From: Pseudomonas sp. MPC6
Lineage (GTDB): Bacteria > Pseudomonadota > Gammaproteobacteria > Pseudomonadales > Pseudomonadaceae
DNA: 64,000 bases
Assembly (NCBI RefSeq): GCF_006094435.1
Contig: NZ_CP034783.1
Coordinates: 833,001 to 897,000 of the forward strand
Direction: 5' to 3'
Part shown: piece by piece, positions 18,790 through 24,457 of the stretch
How the letters are laid out: every line of letters begins with the position of its first letter
How positions within the stretch are numbered: position 1 is the first letter of the stretch
Position numbers and translations under genes: made by a program
Notes under the pieces: model-generated
What the model was told of the DNA's origin: nothing
Seen by the model: the letters and a program-made list of their open reading frames with translations, nothing else
The model's database searches: none

Positions 18790-20124
18790 ATGACTTTCGC
18801 CTCCCTTGGCCTGATCGAACCCTTGCTGCGCTCTCTCGAGACGCTCGGCTACCAGACCCCGACGCCGGTTCAGGCGCAAGCCATTCCGGCAGTGCTGGAC
18901 GGTCGCGACCTGATGGCTGCCGCCCAGACCGGCACTGGCAAGACCGCCGGTTTCGCCCTGCCGCTCCTGCAATTGCTGGCCATGGAAGGTCCGAAAGTCA
19001 CCGCCAATTCGGTGCGTGCCCTGATCCTGGTGCCCACTCGCGAACTGGCTGAACAGGTTCATGAGGCGGTGCGCCAGTACGCCGAGAACCTGCCGTTGAG
19101 CACCTATGCGGTGTATGGCGGCGTCAGCATCAACCCGCAAATGATGAAACTGCGCAAAGGCGTCGACCTGTTGGTGGCGACGCCGGGGCGCTTGCTTGAC
19201 CTGTTCCGGCAGAACGCGCTGAAGTTCAACCAGCTGCAAACCCTGGTGCTGGACGAAGCCGATCGCATGCTCGACCTGGGCTTTTCCGAGGAGCTGGGGA
19301 ACATTTACCGGGTGTTGCCGAAGAAACGTCAGACGCTGTTGTTCTCCGCGACCTTCTCCGACGCGATCCGCCTGCTGGCCGGGCAAATGCTCAACGATCC
19401 ACTGAGCATTGAAGTCAGCCCGCGCAACGTAGCGGCCAACACTGTTAAACAGTGGGTGGTCACGGTGGACAAGAAGCGCAAGCCGGAGCTGTTCGTGCAC
19501 TTGATGCGCAAGGGCAAGTGGAAGCAGGTGCTGGTATTCGCCAAGACCCGTAATGGCGTGGACGCCCTGGTGGAAAAACTCCAGGGCCTGGGCATCAATG
19601 CCGATGGCATCCATGGCGACAAACCCCAGGCAACCCGCCAGCGCGCACTGGACCGTTTCAAAGCCAGCGAAGTGCAGATCCTGGTAGCCACCGACGTCGC
19701 GGCCCGTGGCCTGGATATCGAAGACTTGCCGTTGGTGGTCAATTTCGACCTGCCGATCGTGGCCGAAGACTATATCCACCGGATCGGCCGTACTGGCCGC
19801 GCGGGTGCAACCGGGGAGGCCATTTCCCTGGTGTGCGCCGATGAAGTGAACCTGCTGTCGGCCATCGAGACCTTGACCCGTCAGACGCTGACTCGCCAGA
19901 TGGAACAGGATTTCGAACCCGAGCATCGGGTGCCGGATACCGATGCCAGCGGTCAGGTGGTCAAGAAACCGAAAAAACCGAAAAAGCCGAAAACCTCGGG
20001 CGGCGGCAAGCGCAACCTGGGTAAATGGGTCGAGAGCGGTGATGCGTCGGCGCCGGAACCTTCGATCAAGCCTGTGCGGAAGGTGCCGGTGTTCAACACT
20101 GGGCCGCGTAAGCGTAAGCCTTGA
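18790..20124 (+). CDS. rhlE: DEAD-box ATP-dependent RNA helicase, RhlE-type
   Basis: A 444-residue helicase with all DEAD-box motifs: Q-motif PTPVQ (24-28), Walker A AQTGTGKT (45-52), PTRELAEQ, TPGRLLDL, VLDEADRML, SATFSD, ATDVAARGLDIE and HRIGRTGR. A short lysine/proline-rich tail (repeated KKPKKP) follows and is likely RNA-binding. It unwinds short RNA duplexes and acts in ribosome assembly, RNA decay or cold adaptation. The ATG of MTFASLG is the family start. A 28-bp perfect palindrome after the gene probably ends transcription. Confidence 0.92.
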   Translation: MTFASLGLIEPLLRSLETLGYQTPTPVQAQAIPAVLDGRDLMAAAQTGTGKTAGFALPLLQLLAMEGPKVTANSVRALILVPTRELAEQVHEAVRQYAENLPLSTYAVYGGVSINPQMMKLRKGVDLLVATPGRLLDLFRQNALKFNQLQTLVLDEADRMLDLGFSEELGNIYRVLPKKRQTLLFSATFSDAIRLLAGQMLNDPLSIEVSPRNVAANTVKQWVVTVDKKRKPELFVHLMRKGKWKQVLVFAKTRNGVDALVEKLQGLGINADGIHGDKPQATRQRALDRFKASEVQILVATDVAARGLDIEDLPLVVNFDLPIVAEDYIHRIGRTGRAGATGEAISLVCADEVNLLSAIETLTRQTLTRQMEQDFEPEHRVPDTDASGQVVKKPKKPKKPKTSGGGKRNLGKWVESGDASAPEPSIKPVRKVPVFNTGPRKRKP

Positions 20125-20148
20125 TTTAATGCGGCATCAGTTAGGCCG

Positions 20149-20176
20149 CCTTCGCGAGCAAGCTTGCTCGCGAAGG
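20149..20176. repeat. Perfect 28-bp REP palindrome
   Basis: CCTTCGCGAGCAAG followed at once by its exact complement. Two REP arms are fused with no loop between the convergent rhlE and flavoprotein genes; it may work as a two-way terminator. Confidence 0.8.
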
Positions 20177-20190
20177 GCGTGGCGCGGTCT

Positions 20191-21432
20191 TCAGCCCTTG
20201 CGCTGCAACCACTCCACCATCCCCAACCCGGCCGCCCGCCCACTGGCGAAACACGCGGTCAGCAGATAGCCGCCCGTCGGCGCTTCCCAATCCAGCATCT
20301 CTCCGGCACAGAACACGCCAGGCAACTGCTTGAGCATCAAACGCTCATCCATCGCTTCGAACATCACCCCACCAGCGCTGCTGATGGCCTCGTCCAGTGG
20401 ACGGGTTTTCACCAACGTCAGTGGCAATGCCTTGATCGATCCGGCCAGCGATGCCGGATCAGCGAAACATTCAGCCGCCGTCACCTCCCGTAGCAACGCC
20501 GCTTTCACGCCATCGAGCCCAAGCTGACTGTGCAGGTGTTTGGCCATGGAGCGCGAACCCCGTGGTTTGCTCAGCGCCGCTTCAACCTTATCCACAGGCC
20601 TGCCCGGCAACAGGTCGAGATGGATAGTCGCCGAGCCCTGCAGGTTGATGGCTTCGCGGATCGGTGCAGACAGGGCGTAGATCAGGCTGCCTTCTATCCC
20701 TGTCGCTGTCATCACACATTCCCCGAGCCTCGGGACGTCGTCATTCAGCCCGATCGCGATATTTTTCAGCGGCGCGCCGGCGAATTTACTCACCATCAAC
20801 TCGCTCCAGGCCTGCACTTCGAAGCCGCAATTGCTCGGTTGCAACGGCGCCAGTGCCACGCCGCGCTGTTCCAGCGGCAGCATCCAGGCACCGTCCGAAC
20901 CGAGGCGCGACCAGCTGCCGCCGCCGAGGGCCAACAAGGTTGCGTCGGGTTGAAGGGCTTTTTCGCCATCGGGGCAGGACACTTTCAGGCTGCCATCGCC
21001 ATTCCAGCCGAGCCAGCGGTGGCGGGTGTGGATAACGACTCCCGTGTCGCGCAGGCGTTTGAGCCAGGCGCGTAACAGGGGCGCGGCTTTCATGTCGGTG
21101 GGAAACACCCGGCCGGAGCTGCCGACGAAGGTCTCGATGCCCAGGTCATGGGTCCATTGGCACAGTGCGTCGGCGCCGAATGAGCGCAGCAGCGGCGCAA
21201 TCTGCGGCGCCCGTTCGGCATAGCGTGAAAGGAACGCCGGATAGGCTTCGGAATGGGTGATGTTCATGCCGCCGACTCCGGCCAGCAGGAATTTGCGCCC
21301 GACCGAAGGCATGCCGTCGTACAGGTCGACCTTGATCCCGGCCTGGCTCAACACTTCAGCCGCCATCAGGCCGGCGGGGCCACCGCCGATGATGGCGACG
21401 TGAGGGGGGAGGGGAGTCGAGGGCTGAGTCAT
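20191..21432 (-). CDS. HI0933/TIGR03862-family flavoprotein
   Basis: A 413-residue NAD(P)/FAD-dependent oxidoreductase-like protein. The dinucleotide loop VAIIGGGPAGLMAAEVL is at about 12-28, followed by GRKFLLAGVGGMNITHSE, a hallmark of the HI0933/YhiN group, and a C-terminal FCAGEMLDWEAPTGGYLL. The physiological substrate is not known. The start at MTQPSTP is preferred over an upstream frame. Confidence 0.85.
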   Translation of the reverse strand: MTQPSTPLPPHVAIIGGGPAGLMAAEVLSQAGIKVDLYDGMPSVGRKFLLAGVGGMNITHSEAYPAFLSRYAERAPQIAPLLRSFGADALCQWTHDLGIETFVGSSGRVFPTDMKAAPLLRAWLKRLRDTGVVIHTRHRWLGWNGDGSLKVSCPDGEKALQPDATLLALGGGSWSRLGSDGAWMLPLEQRGVALAPLQPSNCGFEVQAWSELMVSKFAGAPLKNIAIGLNDDVPRLGECVMTATGIEGSLIYALSAPIREAINLQGSATIHLDLLPGRPVDKVEAALSKPRGSRSMAKHLHSQLGLDGVKAALLREVTAAECFADPASLAGSIKALPLTLVKTRPLDEAISSAGGVMFEAMDERLMLKQLPGVFCAGEMLDWEAPTGGYLLTACFASGRAAGLGMVEWLQRKG

Positions 21433-21587
21433 GGAATGCACTGCGGTTCGGCGAATGAAGCCGGGCATTCTACCGCAGAGATCAAATGTGGGAGCGGGCT
21501 TGCTCGCGAAGGCGATTTTTCATTCAGCATTGATTTCGACTGACCCACCGCCTTCGCGAGCAAGCCCGCTTGTATGTTTAGACTTGT

Positions 21588-21745
21588 AGGGGTGGTGGGA
21601 CTAAAAGCCAGCATCTGACTCTAGCCAGTACAGACCGTGGGAGACTTCGCCCCACCCCTTCACCAAAGCGCCGATAAGGAATGCATCGGCCATGACCGAC
21701 GATAGAAGCAAGCCAGCGCAATGGTGAAGCCCCGACAAGCCTTTA
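21588..21745 (+). ncRNA. Predicted bridge RNA region of the IS110 element
   Basis: An outer stem pairs 21588-21595 with 21652-21659. Inside, AAGCCAGC (21605-21612) matches the left target AAGCCCGC at 7 of 8 positions. A hairpin follows (21614-21634). GTGGGAG (21637-21643) is the exact complement of the right target CTCCCAC. Further on is a hairpin at 21670-21690. ATAGAA (21702-21707) equals the element's right end (22728-22733). ACAAG (21735-21739) is the complement of the junction CTTGT at the left end (21569-21573). Order and spacing (about 24-27 bases between each pair) fit the LTG-RTG-LDG-RDG layout known for IS621. RNA ends are not determined. Confidence 0.65.
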
Positions 21746-21768
21746 AACCCTAACCCGGAGCTTTCTTT

Positions 21769-22731
21769 GTGGCAATGAGTGTCTCGCGTTCTGTAGTCGG
21801 AGTGGATGTCGCCAAGGCCGAAGTGGTGGTCTATCAGGCCGACACGGATCTGCTGTTGGCCGTGTCAAACGATAAACCGTCTCTTACAAAGTGGCTGAAA
21901 ACGTTACCTGCAAACAGCGCCATCGCTATTGAAGCCACCAATATCTATCACCTGGATACGGTTGAGCTGGCTCATGCAATGGGACATACCGTCTATGTCA
22001 TCGACGGCTTCCGTTTGAGTAATTACCGCAAAGGAGTGGGTGGCCGCGCCAAAACAGATGCCAGCGACGCCCGTTTACTGGCGCGTTACTTGAAGAACGA
22101 AGAGGAAGAGCTACGTCCTTGGAGCCCGCCGCCGAAGGTCTATACCAAGCTTCAAAGCCTGCTTCGAAGACGAGCGACATTGGTCCAGGCGCGTGTCAGT
22201 TTGACTCAAAGCTGGAACGACGAACCGCTGCTGAAAGCGGCATTCAAACAACAGATCGCTGCCATGGGCCGATTGGATTTACTCATCCAGAAGAAGCTGT
22301 TGGACGTCGTAAAAGAGGCGGGTCTGCTCGAGCAAGTCAAACGCTGCCAGGCCGTAGAGGGGGTCGGTTTTCTTACCGCCACCGCACTGACGATGGCATT
22401 TCAACGTGGCGACTTCGCCAGTGGTGACGCCTATATCGCGTTTCTTGGAATGGATTTGAGAGTCTCTGATTCGGGGCAGATGAACGGACGTCGAAAGCTG
22501 ACCAAGAAAGGTGACTCAGAGATACGGCGCCTGCTGCATAACGCGGCGATGGCTGCCAGTCGCTCAAAGACCTGGAAGCCGTTTTACGAACGCTATCTGG
22601 AGCGGGGATTAAAGACGACTCAAGTGCTGGTCATCCTGGCTCGCAAGCTGGCACGGGTGGCATTCGCCCTGATGAAGAACCAGAGCGAATATCAGCCAAA
22701 TCCAGTTTTTGGGGCTTCCCCCCAAACATAG
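21769..22731 (+). CDS. IS110-family transposase / recombinase
   Basis: A 320-residue recombinase. The N-terminal RuvC-like domain has the DEDD set D13 (GVDVAK), E55 (AIEATN), D97 and D100 (KTDASDA). The C-terminal Tnp domain has the serine S235 in RVSDSGQMNGRRKLTKKG and a helix-hairpin-helix-like AVEGVGFLTATALT. Together with a guide RNA it would join element and target at a dinucleotide core. The GTG start at 21769 has GGAG 8 bases upstream; ATG at 21775 is an alternative. The stop codon overlaps the right subterminal repeat. It appears intact, so the element may be active. Confidence 0.92.
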   Translation: MAMSVSRSVVGVDVAKAEVVVYQADTDLLLAVSNDKPSLTKWLKTLPANSAIAIEATNIYHLDTVELAHAMGHTVYVIDGFRLSNYRKGVGGRAKTDASDARLLARYLKNEEEELRPWSPPPKVYTKLQSLLRRRATLVQARVSLTQSWNDEPLLKAAFKQQIAAMGRLDLLIQKKLLDVVKEAGLLEQVKRCQAVEGVGFLTATALTMAFQRGDFASGDAYIAFLGMDLRVSDSGQMNGRRKLTKKGDSEIRRLLHNAAMAASRSKTWKPFYERYLERGLKTTQVLVILARKLARVAFALMKNQSEYQPNPVFGASPQT

Positions 22732-22860
22732 AATCTCCCACATTTGAACTTTGGTGTATTCAGACGGCTGATCAAAAAACAACCACCGCTCTGAAGCCTA
22801 TACCCCGCATGGCCTGCAGCCTCTTTCACTCAGGTTATCCACAGGCGGTTCCACAGTCAT

Positions 22861-22878
22861 TGTGGGTAAAGACCCACA
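22861..22878 (-). other. Small stem-loop downstream of HDAC-like gene
   Basis: TGTGGGT (22861-22867) pairs with ACCCACA (22872-22878) around a 4-base loop just past the stop. There is no U-tract, so it is at most a weak terminator. Confidence 0.35.
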
Positions 22879-22880
22879 TC

Positions 22881-23801
22881 TCAATGACAACCTGATGACT
22901 GCCAGACCCTTTGGGCGCTGTGATGCAGGATCCCATGACGACGCGCCAGGGCCTTGCGGTCCTTGCTGTAGCCGCCGCCGATCACCCCCATCACCGGAAT
23001 ATCCCGGCCCAGGCAATGCCGCATCACGCTTTCATCGCGGGCGGCGACGCCTTCGTCCGTCAGTTTCAGGTAGCCGAGTGCGTCATCCTTGTGCACATCG
23101 ACACCGGCGTCATACAGCACCAGATCAGGCTGGTAGAGCGGCAGCAAGTAGTTGAGCGCATCGTCCACGACCCTCAGGTAGTCCGCATCGCCCATGCCCA
23201 TTGGCAGGGGAATGTCCCAGTCGCTTTCGGCCTTGCGTGCAGGAAAATTCTTTTCGCAGTGCAGGGAAACGGTGATGGCCTCCGGGGTGTTGTGCAGGAT
23301 CCGTGCAGTCCCGTCACCCTGATGCACATCGCAGTCGAAGATCAGCACCCGATTCACCCGGCCGCTTTCCAGCAGGAAATGACTGATCACCGCCAGGTCA
23401 TTGAAGATGCAGAACCCGGCGGGATGGTCGTAGTGCGCATGGTGGGTGCCGCCCGCCAGATGACAGGCCAAACCATGTTCCAGCGCCTGCTCGGCCGCCA
23501 GCAGGGAACCGCCAACCGCCCGCACCGTACGCCGGGCCAGGGCTTCGCTCCAGGGCAGGCCGAGACGCCGCTGGTCTTCGCGGGACAACTCGCCGCCCAT
23601 GTAGCGTTCGATATACGCAGGGTCATGAGCGAGGGCGAGAATCTCTGGCGGGCAGAGGTCCGGGCGCAGCAGGTCGGTGTCTCGGGTCAGTCCGCTGTCC
23701 ACCAGGTGATCGCGCAGCAGGCGAAACTTGTCCATGGGGAAGCGGTGATCCGCCGGGAACTCGGGGCTGTAGTCTTCGTGGTAGATCAACGGCAGGGGCA
23801 T
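22881..23801 (-). CDS. Histone-deacetylase-family amidohydrolase
   Basis: A 306-residue arginase/deacetylase-fold enzyme. The zinc and catalytic residues are visible in GGTHHAHYDHPAGFC (His pair), FDCDVHQGDGT (Asp and His ligands) and YDAGVDVHKDD (Asp ligand). Bacterial members remove acetyl groups from small amines or acetylated lysines. The gene is alone, with the IS-split REP downstream and a GNAT acetyltransferase gene divergent 86 bases away, though no functional link is shown. Confidence 0.87.
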   Translation of the reverse strand: MPLPLIYHEDYSPEFPADHRFPMDKFRLLRDHLVDSGLTRDTDLLRPDLCPPEILALAHDPAYIERYMGGELSREDQRRLGLPWSEALARRTVRAVGGSLLAAEQALEHGLACHLAGGTHHAHYDHPAGFCIFNDLAVISHFLLESGRVNRVLIFDCDVHQGDGTARILHNTPEAITVSLHCEKNFPARKAESDWDIPLPMGMGDADYLRVVDDALNYLLPLYQPDLVLYDAGVDVHKDDALGYLKLTDEGVAARDESVMRHCLGRDIPVMGVIGGGYSKDRKALARRHGILHHSAQRVWQSSGCH

Positions 23802-23887
23802 GACTGATTTATCGAGGAAGGCATGTAGGAATGAATCAAGGATCCTACCAGCGATCTAGACTTGCGGCATGGGAAAGGGGGAATACG

Positions 23888-24457
23888 ATGGAGCCGATAC
23901 GTGAACTCGAGAGCGCGCGACTGCTGTTGCGGCAGTGGTGTGACGAGGATTTGCCGGCGTTTGCGGCGATGTGCGCCGATCCGCAGGTGATGCGCTATTT
24001 TCCGGCGCCCTTGAGTCGGCTGGACAGTGCTGCGCTGATCGGGCGGATCCGTGGCCACTTTGCCGAGCGTGGCTTCGGTCTCTGGGCGCTGGAGCGCAAG
24101 GACACCGGCGCATTCATCGGGTTTACCGGATTGGGTGAGGTCGGCTTCGATGCGCCGTTCACCCCGGCCACCGAAATCGGCTGGCGCCTGGCCCGCGAGC
24201 ATTGGGGCCTGGGCTACGCCAGTGAGGCGGCGTGGACCGCTCTGCGCTGTGGCTTTGACCGGTTGGCACTGAATGAGGTCGTGTCTTTCACCACCGCCAC
24301 CAACATGCCTTCGCAGAAAGTCATGCAGGCGATCGGCATGCACCATGATTCAGCCGATGATTTTGACCACCCCAGGCTCGCGATCGGTCATCCCCTGCGT
24401 CACCATGTGCTGTACCGCATCACTCGTGAACAATGGCTGCAAACCTTGCATGGATAA
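23888..24457 (+). CDS. GNAT-family N-acetyltransferase, RimJ/RimL-like
   Basis: A 189-residue acetyltransferase starting MEPIRELESARLLLRQWCDED, the typical opening of the RimJ/RimL-type GNAT group. The acetyl-CoA region is EIGWRLAREHWGLGYASEAA (about residues 98-117), followed by FTTATNMPSQKVMQAIGM. AAAGGGGGA before 23888 supports this start over the ATG 19 codons upstream. It would acetylate a protein N-terminus or small amine; the target is unknown. Confidence 0.83.
   Translation: MEPIRELESARLLLRQWCDEDLPAFAAMCADPQVMRYFPAPLSRLDSAALIGRIRGHFAERGFGLWALERKDTGAFIGFTGLGEVGFDAPFTPATEIGWRLAREHWGLGYASEAAWTALRCGFDRLALNEVVSFTTATNMPSQKVMQAIGMHHDSADDFDHPRLAIGHPLRHHVLYRITREQWLQTLHG

Follow-up and report, generated by a model that had tools for sequence, protein, structure and literature searches.

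The window analysed here, a 64,000-nucleotide stretch of the Pseudomonas sp. MPC6 genome, contains one IS110-family insertion sequence of 1,164 bp inside a REP, and raises the question of whether the non-coding left end of this element encodes an RNA that directs it to such repeats. A first-pass annotation had proposed a bridge RNA with four guide segments, in the order left and right target guide (LTG, RTG) and left and right donor guide (LDG, RDG). Sequence comparisons make it very probable that the element belongs to the IS621 type of IS110-family insertion sequences and that its left end encodes a REP-programmed bridge RNA. This central proposal was upheld by guide-target and helix covariation among relatives; of the four proposed guides, the target pair was supported by the copies and by covarying relatives, but the donor pair was not. 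The element comprises:

21571..22734, + strand: IS110-family insertion sequence, one of 11 genome copies; borders set where likeness among the 11 copies ends
21571..21768, + strand: left non-coding end, putative bridge RNA gene; identical in 11/11 copies, with guide-target and helix covariation in relatives
21769..22731, + strand: recombinase of 320 amino acids, with domain matches to DEDD_Tnp_IS110 and Transposase_20

All 11 genome copies were 1,164 bp long and differed by 0-2 SNPs, at element positions 837 and 843. The recombinase showed an N-terminal DEDD domain (PF01548) and a C-terminal Transposase_20 domain (PF02371), both above the curated cut-off, and its only relatives among solved structures at E <= 0.001 were the ISCro4 and IS621 transposases. 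Alignment by eye with these proteins indicated the presence of the catalytic residues D13, E55, D97, D100, and S235, of which D13 was placed from the ISCro4 alignment only, as the IS621 alignment begins at residue 33. Only 3 bases separate the stop codon (22729-22731) from the right end of the element (22734), and the 198-base non-coding region lies upstream of tnp; the long non-coding region downstream of tnp that is a trait of the IS1111 group (seekRNA) was absent. The 11 near-identical copies, the open reading frame and the catalytic residues suggest that the recombinase system is possibly active.

Pseudomonas REPs have been described as a GT(A/G)G head and an inserted GA, followed by a palindrome (PMC2817692). 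All 11 copies were found inside REPs, at one junction point with a CT core. Insertion was sequence-specific with a short core, CT occurring on both sides in 11/11 copies, and without long terminal repeats of the target. Four copies, including the window copy (L023; further L015, L017, and L024), had left/right flanks AAGCCCG/CTCCCAC, six (L014, L016, L018, L019, L021, and L022) had AAGCCAG/CTCCTAC, and one (L020) had AAGCCAG/CTCCCAC. The targets and the putative guides that face them were as follows:

21562..21570, + strand: left target, made up of the REP palindrome arm AAGCCCG and then the core CT (21569-21570); REP type of 4/11 copies
22735..22741, + strand: right target, core CT and CCCAC, complement of the REP head GTGGGAG; from the sequence and the 11-copy comparison
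21605..21611, + strand: LTG AAGCCAG; tracks the target in relatives
21637..21643, + strand: RTG GTGGGAG, complement of CTCCCAC; changes with the target in genome G094, and in G581 and G304 the RTG fits a different right target, that of its own element, at 6/7
21644..21645, + strand: probable handshake-guide position (AC), from the IS621 register (PMC11208158); A at 21644 is invariant in the alignment

The segments and helices of the first-pass annotation were present where it had placed them: AAGCCAGC at 21605-21612, GTGGGAG at 21637-21643, ATAGAA at 21702-21707, ACAAG at 21735-21739, a stem of AGGGGTGG (21588-21595) with CCACCCCT (21652-21659), and an inner hairpin (21614-21634). Its 7/8 match of the LTG to the left flank was seen, but the window copy represents one of two left-target classes and the LTG is exact for the other, which accounts for 7/11 copies. 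GTGGGAG was confirmed as the exact complement of the right flank including the CT core, and is exact for the class of the window copy. The core position of the LTG (21612-21613) reads CA, not CT. Taken as a pair, AAGCCAG and GTGGGAG are exact in both arms for the L020 flanks only (1/11 copies); they show one LTG mismatch and an exact RTG with AAGCCCG/CTCCCAC, and an exact LTG and one G.T wobble in the RTG with AAGCCAG/CTCCTAC. Comparison with the flanks of every genome copy, as the annotation had proposed, thus revealed no more than one mismatch or wobble in each of the 11 REPs. A second copy of AAGCCAGC at 21710, absent from the annotation, was rejected as a guide; relatives almost always read CAAGCC[A/T]GCGC at that position, whatever their target.

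To estimate the chance level of these matches, the 198 bases were shuffled 3,000 times with dinucleotides preserved, and presence alone was scored, without order or spacing. AAGCCCGC was matched at 7/8 or better in 631 shuffles (21%), exact GTGGGAG in 38 (1.3%), and both together in 12 (0.4%); ATAGAA occurred in 165 (5.5%), ACAAG in 809 (27%), and all four segments in none. Within this sequence alone, the RTG is the one segment that stands out, the LTG and ACAAG matches being close to chance level. The single-sequence case is modest, and it is comparison with copies and relatives that, by the sequences available, raises the target segments above chance.

Among 298 genomes of the genus, 41 (the own genome included) had relatives at E <= 1e-60. 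From these, 119 non-own copies were fetched; truncated copies, copies at contig ends and some single matches (e.g., G004, G005, G022, G237, and G283) were left out. Copy numbers in other genomes are at-least values, with at most 7 candidates scored per genome. Further rows came from 12 named loci of 57 and from eight copies in five genomes of other genera; the other-genus search matched 6 of 293 genomes, again including the own genome. The oriented loci numbered 142, or 141 without L219, which had no CTTGTATG junction. Six of the 141 were dropped for a missing flank or an unparsed loop (L047, L049, L050, and L092-L094), and nine distant rows entered by hand (the eight other-genus copies and L049) gave 144 insertions. 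Junctions were located by the motifs CTTGTATG and ATAGAATCT, and donor variation cannot be judged from this set. Match scores refer to the best offset within the loop.

In 124 of the 144 insertions the LTG agreed with its own target at 6-7 of the 7 positions, and in 20 at 5/7 or fewer (7, 6, 5, 4, 3, and 2 of 7 in 69, 55, 14, 4, 1, and 1 insertions, respectively). For 18 LTG types, own-target matches summed to 107/126 against a shuffled mean of 86.1, which none of 20,000 shuffles reached; with distant elements included, 24 types gave 142/168 against a mean of 106.5 and a highest value of 121 (0/10,000). The RTG matched at 7/7 in 124 insertions and at 6/7 in 20, and its 15 types gave 101/105 against a shuffled mean of 93.4, reached by 5/10,000 shuffles; by these sequences the RTG is also tracking the target, with a weaker statistic than the LTG. 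As guide types share descent, these shuffle figures are not strict probabilities.

Individual genomes illustrated the same trend. In G094, with LTG AGTTCG and RTG GTAGGAG, 6/6 copies occurred in AAGTTCG/CTCCTAC; among the first 100 of 285 sites listed in that host, 56 were AAGTTCGCTCCTAC and 24 AAGCTCGCTCCCAC (counted by eye). In G217, with LTG ATGCCCG, 6/7 insertions were in the WHGCCCG class (463 free sites) and 0/7 in AAGCCAG REPs (367 free). G573 and a Natronospira MAG matched at 7/7 in both arms. The right targets of G581 (CTCACAT) and G304 (CTCAGTG) are each fitted by their own RTG at 6/7. In these two elements from other genera (L251 and L252, respectively), the flanks, TTCGACAAG-CT-CAGTGCGAACGG in L252 and TTCGCTGCG-CT-CACATGGA in L251, are other repeats or repeat-like, and the latter recurs downstream within the same locus.

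Contrary cases were also observed. LTG matches were 3/7 in G091, whose left end is 125 nt long and has no donor loop, 2/7 in one G186 copy with a left flank that is not a REP, 4/7 in one G214 copy, 4/7 ungapped in G304, and 4-5/7 in all six copies with guide AGTTCG in G066, G213, and P. triticifolii. A match of 5/7 was found in G245 (3/3 copies), G009, G459, one copy each of G217 and G128, and three of four G477 copies, and in Leaf48, which stands outside the 144 as its right flank is missing. The RTG of G080 was one base off its target in 6/6 copies. At the core position, the LTG reads CA in the window element and AT in many relatives. Across the relatives as a whole, the covariation of guides with targets is, at the level of sequence, the decisive evidence for a bridge RNA.

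Conserved helices were examined in the same left ends, with the following features in the window copy:

21583..21586, + strand: CUUG, 5' strand of the outer helix with CAAG 21736-21739; 39/39 sequences, invariant
21588..21595, + strand: 5' strand of the target-loop closing stem, pairing with 21652-21659; own arms best, 0/2,000 shuffles
21614..21634, + strand: hairpin inside the target-binding loop; compensatory changes in two pairs
21652..21659, + strand: 3' strand of the target-loop closing stem; arm-against-arm test
21668..21671, + strand: donor-loop stem GCGC, pairing with 21716-21719; paired in 39/39 and invariant, so uninformative on covariation
21686..21699, + strand: hairpin inside the donor-binding loop, formed by TCGG 21686-21689 and CCGA 21696-21699; 88.5% of cells paired, two compensatory pairs
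21736..21739, + strand: CAAG, 3' strand of the outer helix, within the RDG of the first-pass annotation; 39/39 sequences

Alignment A1 comprised 39 of 40 representatives; the remaining one, L144 (G091), has no donor loop and was omitted. Run on the MAFFT alignment, RNAalifold performed poorly for the target-loop stem, whose length differs by subfamily, and this stem was therefore tested arm against arm. Its sequence differs among subfamilies and is complementary in each: 25 unique arm pairs scored 20.0 with their own partner and 16.55 with those of others, a result reached by 0/2,000 shuffles. In three further helices 96.6% of cells pair, compared with 16-48% when the helices were slid by 1-3 columns, and both sides changed in 4/15 pairs. 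The covariation score of these helices was reached by 0/500 shuffles and their count of further pair types by 37/500; one pair of helix 3 is unpaired in 17/39 sequences, perhaps through misalignment. The coordinates given earlier for the stem and inner hairpin around the target pair were correct, and both covary in relatives. The first-pass annotation had named unchanged segments beside unrelated targets and a lack of stem covariation as grounds against its own reading; both were examined and the reading was not refuted. A single-sequence fold of the left end was no better than chance (z -1.35; 21/200 shuffles as good), and an Rfam search of 20000-24000 gave two matches at E < 1, both unrelated and far below gathering scores. 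L144, with its left end of just 125 nt, retains the target loop but has no donor loop, and is probably unable to move alone.

The donor assignment is less certain than that of the targets. In the published IS621 structure the second loop carries the LDG on its 5' arm and the RDG on its 3' arm, and RDG pairing proceeds from AU through a G opposite T12 to CAAG opposite CTTG (PMC11208158). The right donor of the element reads CTTGTATG and the 3' arm of its donor loop AUAGAAGCAAG (21702-21712). Placed in the IS621 register, these sequences suggest the following guides:

21676..21682, + strand: proposed LDG AAGGAAT, facing left donor ATAGAAT (22728-22734); IS621 register, a matching change in G304, 5/7 letters equal
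21702..21712, + strand: proposed RDG AUAGAAGCAAG, discontiguous pairing with CTTGTAT; IS621 register AU ... G CAAG, [A/G]CAAG conserved

The ATAGAA segment (21702-21707) that had been called the LDG therefore falls inside the proposed RDG. It is also inconstant, reading ATAGGA, ATAGAG or ATAGCG in relatives, though the element end that it should copy stays ATAGAAT. ACAAG (21735-21739), previously called the RDG, lies beyond the donor loop, and its CAAG pairs with the CUUG near the 5' end as the 3' strand of the outer helix in 39/39 aligned sequences. Neither donor segment of the first-pass annotation was retained. In G304, the donor end ATAGAGC and the LDG arm AGGAGC share a single matching change. 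The proposed LDG and RDG agree with the IS621 register, but the donor ends show hardly any variation and helped in part to locate the junctions. An invariant A follows the RTG, as the published scheme would predict for a handshake base facing the invariant donor T.

Three other explanations of the guide-target matches were weighed. Selection of REPs by the recombinase protein, or by the shape of the REP hairpin, with guide matches that are incidental, would agree with the REP-like nature of all Pseudomonas targets examined save one left flank (G186), and insertion of related elements into REPs was once explained by the transposase itself (PMC1525189). This explanation is nevertheless very unlikely, given that loop bases follow the target class both between and within hosts (G094, G217, and G573) and also track the target in G581 and G304, whose flanks are not Pseudomonas REPs, although the LTG match of G304 is poor (4/7). 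A similarly small probability was assigned to a left end that acts chiefly as a regulatory leader or antisense-RNA locus of tnp: ISPpu9, a REP-inserting IS110 element, is reported to have a 244-nt tnp leader and two RNAs of ~180 nt that affect tnp expression (PMC8450116), but a leader does not predict loop bases that track insertion targets. A regulatory role alongside guiding is possible.

Least probable of the three is a match by descent only, in which kin elements in kin hosts share guide and target without pairing. Guide types and hosts are indeed related, and the shuffles ignore kinship. However, the match persists in distant elements with 36-62% protein identity, such as that of G573, and host REP classes are unevenly used. 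Moreover, within the single genome G477, a copy with LTG AGGCAAG is inserted in AGGCAAG, whereas three with LTG AAGCAAG are in GGGCAAG (5/7).

This uneven use could be quantified in the host. Free sites numbered 2,214 for AAGCNNGCTNCNAC, 922 for AAGCCAGCTCCYAC (10 of them AAGCCAGCTCCCAC), 372 for WHGCCCGCTCCYAC, and 304 for AAGCTCGCTCCYAC, while insertions by class were seven in AAGCCAG, four in AAGCCCG, and none in AAGCTCG or elsewhere. Classes other than AAGCCAG and AAGCCCG received 0/11 insertions, yet make up roughly 40-42% of the REPs counted. The chance that 11 independent, class-blind insertions would all avoid the other roughly 42% of sites is near 0.003, an approximate figure as the patterns are not strictly nested. 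Per site, insertions amounted to 1 in 11 for perfect pairing, 4 in about 370 and 6 in about 918 for targets one position off, and 0 in roughly 900 others; this order is that predicted by pairing, with the perfect class represented by a single insertion. The host also carries, at C4:352625-353502, ten consecutive REPs on one strand at exactly 96-base spacing.

Remnants of other left ends were found in the same genome, at C4:58754, 4654127, and 6673149 (L026, L247, and L025; 31, 23, and 25 bp, respectively). All three start precisely at the junction of a REP of class AAGCTCG or AGGCTCG, which the resident element uses in 0/11 copies. They are closer to a sister subfamily (G052, G011, G100, G139, and others) than to the resident element, and therefore an earlier, differently programmed relative, its guides now lost, may once have lived in this host. 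L012 and L013, considered as full relatives, were rejected as left-end remnants of 25 and 31 bp.

The RTG GTGGGAG corresponds to the REP head, the GA and the first palindrome base, and the LTG covers the palindrome arm, a division that would account for an LTG that differs from host to host and an RTG that is nearly constant. G296, whose recombinase shares 73% protein identity, has the same guide pair as the window element, exact in both arms for AAGCCAGCTCCCAC; 5/6 of its copies are in AAGCCAG. REPs combining AAGCCAG with CTCCCAC made up 37 of the first 100 of 784 AAGCCNGCTCCYAC sites listed in G296 (by eye), but are rare in the host of the window, with only 10 free sites. Tentatively, and with somewhat less than even confidence, we propose that a split guide tracks REPs, the LTG following host REP classes and the RTG the conserved head and GA, that few RNA-base changes allow moves between hosts, and that the window element was seemingly programmed elsewhere and now uses one-off targets. 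It is suggested that a mobile element could in this way keep pace with a fast-changing host repeat. The many hosts, with several REP classes and guide bases that follow them, provide an independent natural test of bridge-RNA targeting, in which tolerance of mismatches can be gauged from some two thousand free sites of a single genome.

The DNA itself shows the insertion sites, the covariation of guides with targets and within helices, and an intact recombinase frame; that the RNA is made, bound by protein and guides recombination we infer from published work on IS621. By that analogy, the 198-bp left end would encode a bridge RNA that binds the adjacent recombinase, its donor-binding loop would pair with ATAGAAT-CT-TGTATG, where the two ends meet in the excised circle, and the recombinase would join the circle to a REP at CT. 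One mismatch or G.T wobble would be tolerated, so that one RNA would serve two REP classes in the host. A linear scan revealed no sigma-70 promoter, and the best sigma-70 candidates spanning the circle junction scored just 7/12, which was not convincing.

As described for IS621 of E. coli (PMC11208160, PMC11208158), features shared with the element include a DEDD and Tnp-Ser recombinase of similar length, an RNA region at the left, a pair of loops with left and right guides (as proposed, for the donor loop), a CT core, REP targets, and a right donor CTTGTAT with [A/G]CAAG in the RDG. Protein similarity is low (76 bits), and the bridge RNA of the element is predicted from its DNA. Relative to the published IS621 account, the RTG match spans 7 nt rather than 4, the LTG core position reads CA or AT in most of the clade rather than CT, and four bases rather than two would be flipped out of the RDG. 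The best match among solved structures was the ISCro4 transposase (PDB 9t56; 78 bits, residues 8-308), a likeness of transposase sequence. Insertion of Pseudomonas IS110 elements into REPs was reported in 2006, for 7/7 copies each of ISPpu9 and ISPpu10 in P. putida KT2440 and 6/6 of ISPa11 in P. aeruginosa (PMC1525189); by their published descriptions, these IS110-family elements resemble the present one in residing in REPs. ISPa11 is described as an IS1111-type element with a seekRNA (PMC11187229), its RNA lying downstream of tnp, whereas the non-coding region of the present element lies upstream.

In 2024, REP-directed RNAs were reported for IS621 (bridge RNA; PMC11208160) and ISPa11 (seekRNA; PMC11187229). 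As a REP-targeting IS110 bridge RNA is already known from IS621, the element is, on sequence grounds, a well-supported further member of the bridge-RNA family. What is new is a clade whose LTG reads the variable REP palindrome and whose RTG reads its conserved head; titles and abstracts in the part of the literature covered gave no earlier description of guide-REP covariation in this clade, and some of these elements may well be included in orthologue sets already published. Should they be active, the recombinase and its RNA, whose right guide matches over 7 nt, would offer a further candidate, besides IS621, for programmable recombination. Within the wider set of relatives, all six G080 copies (L235-L240) have a longer right end that includes the REP-like stretch CCCGGCAAGCCGGCCTCCCAC or a near version of it.
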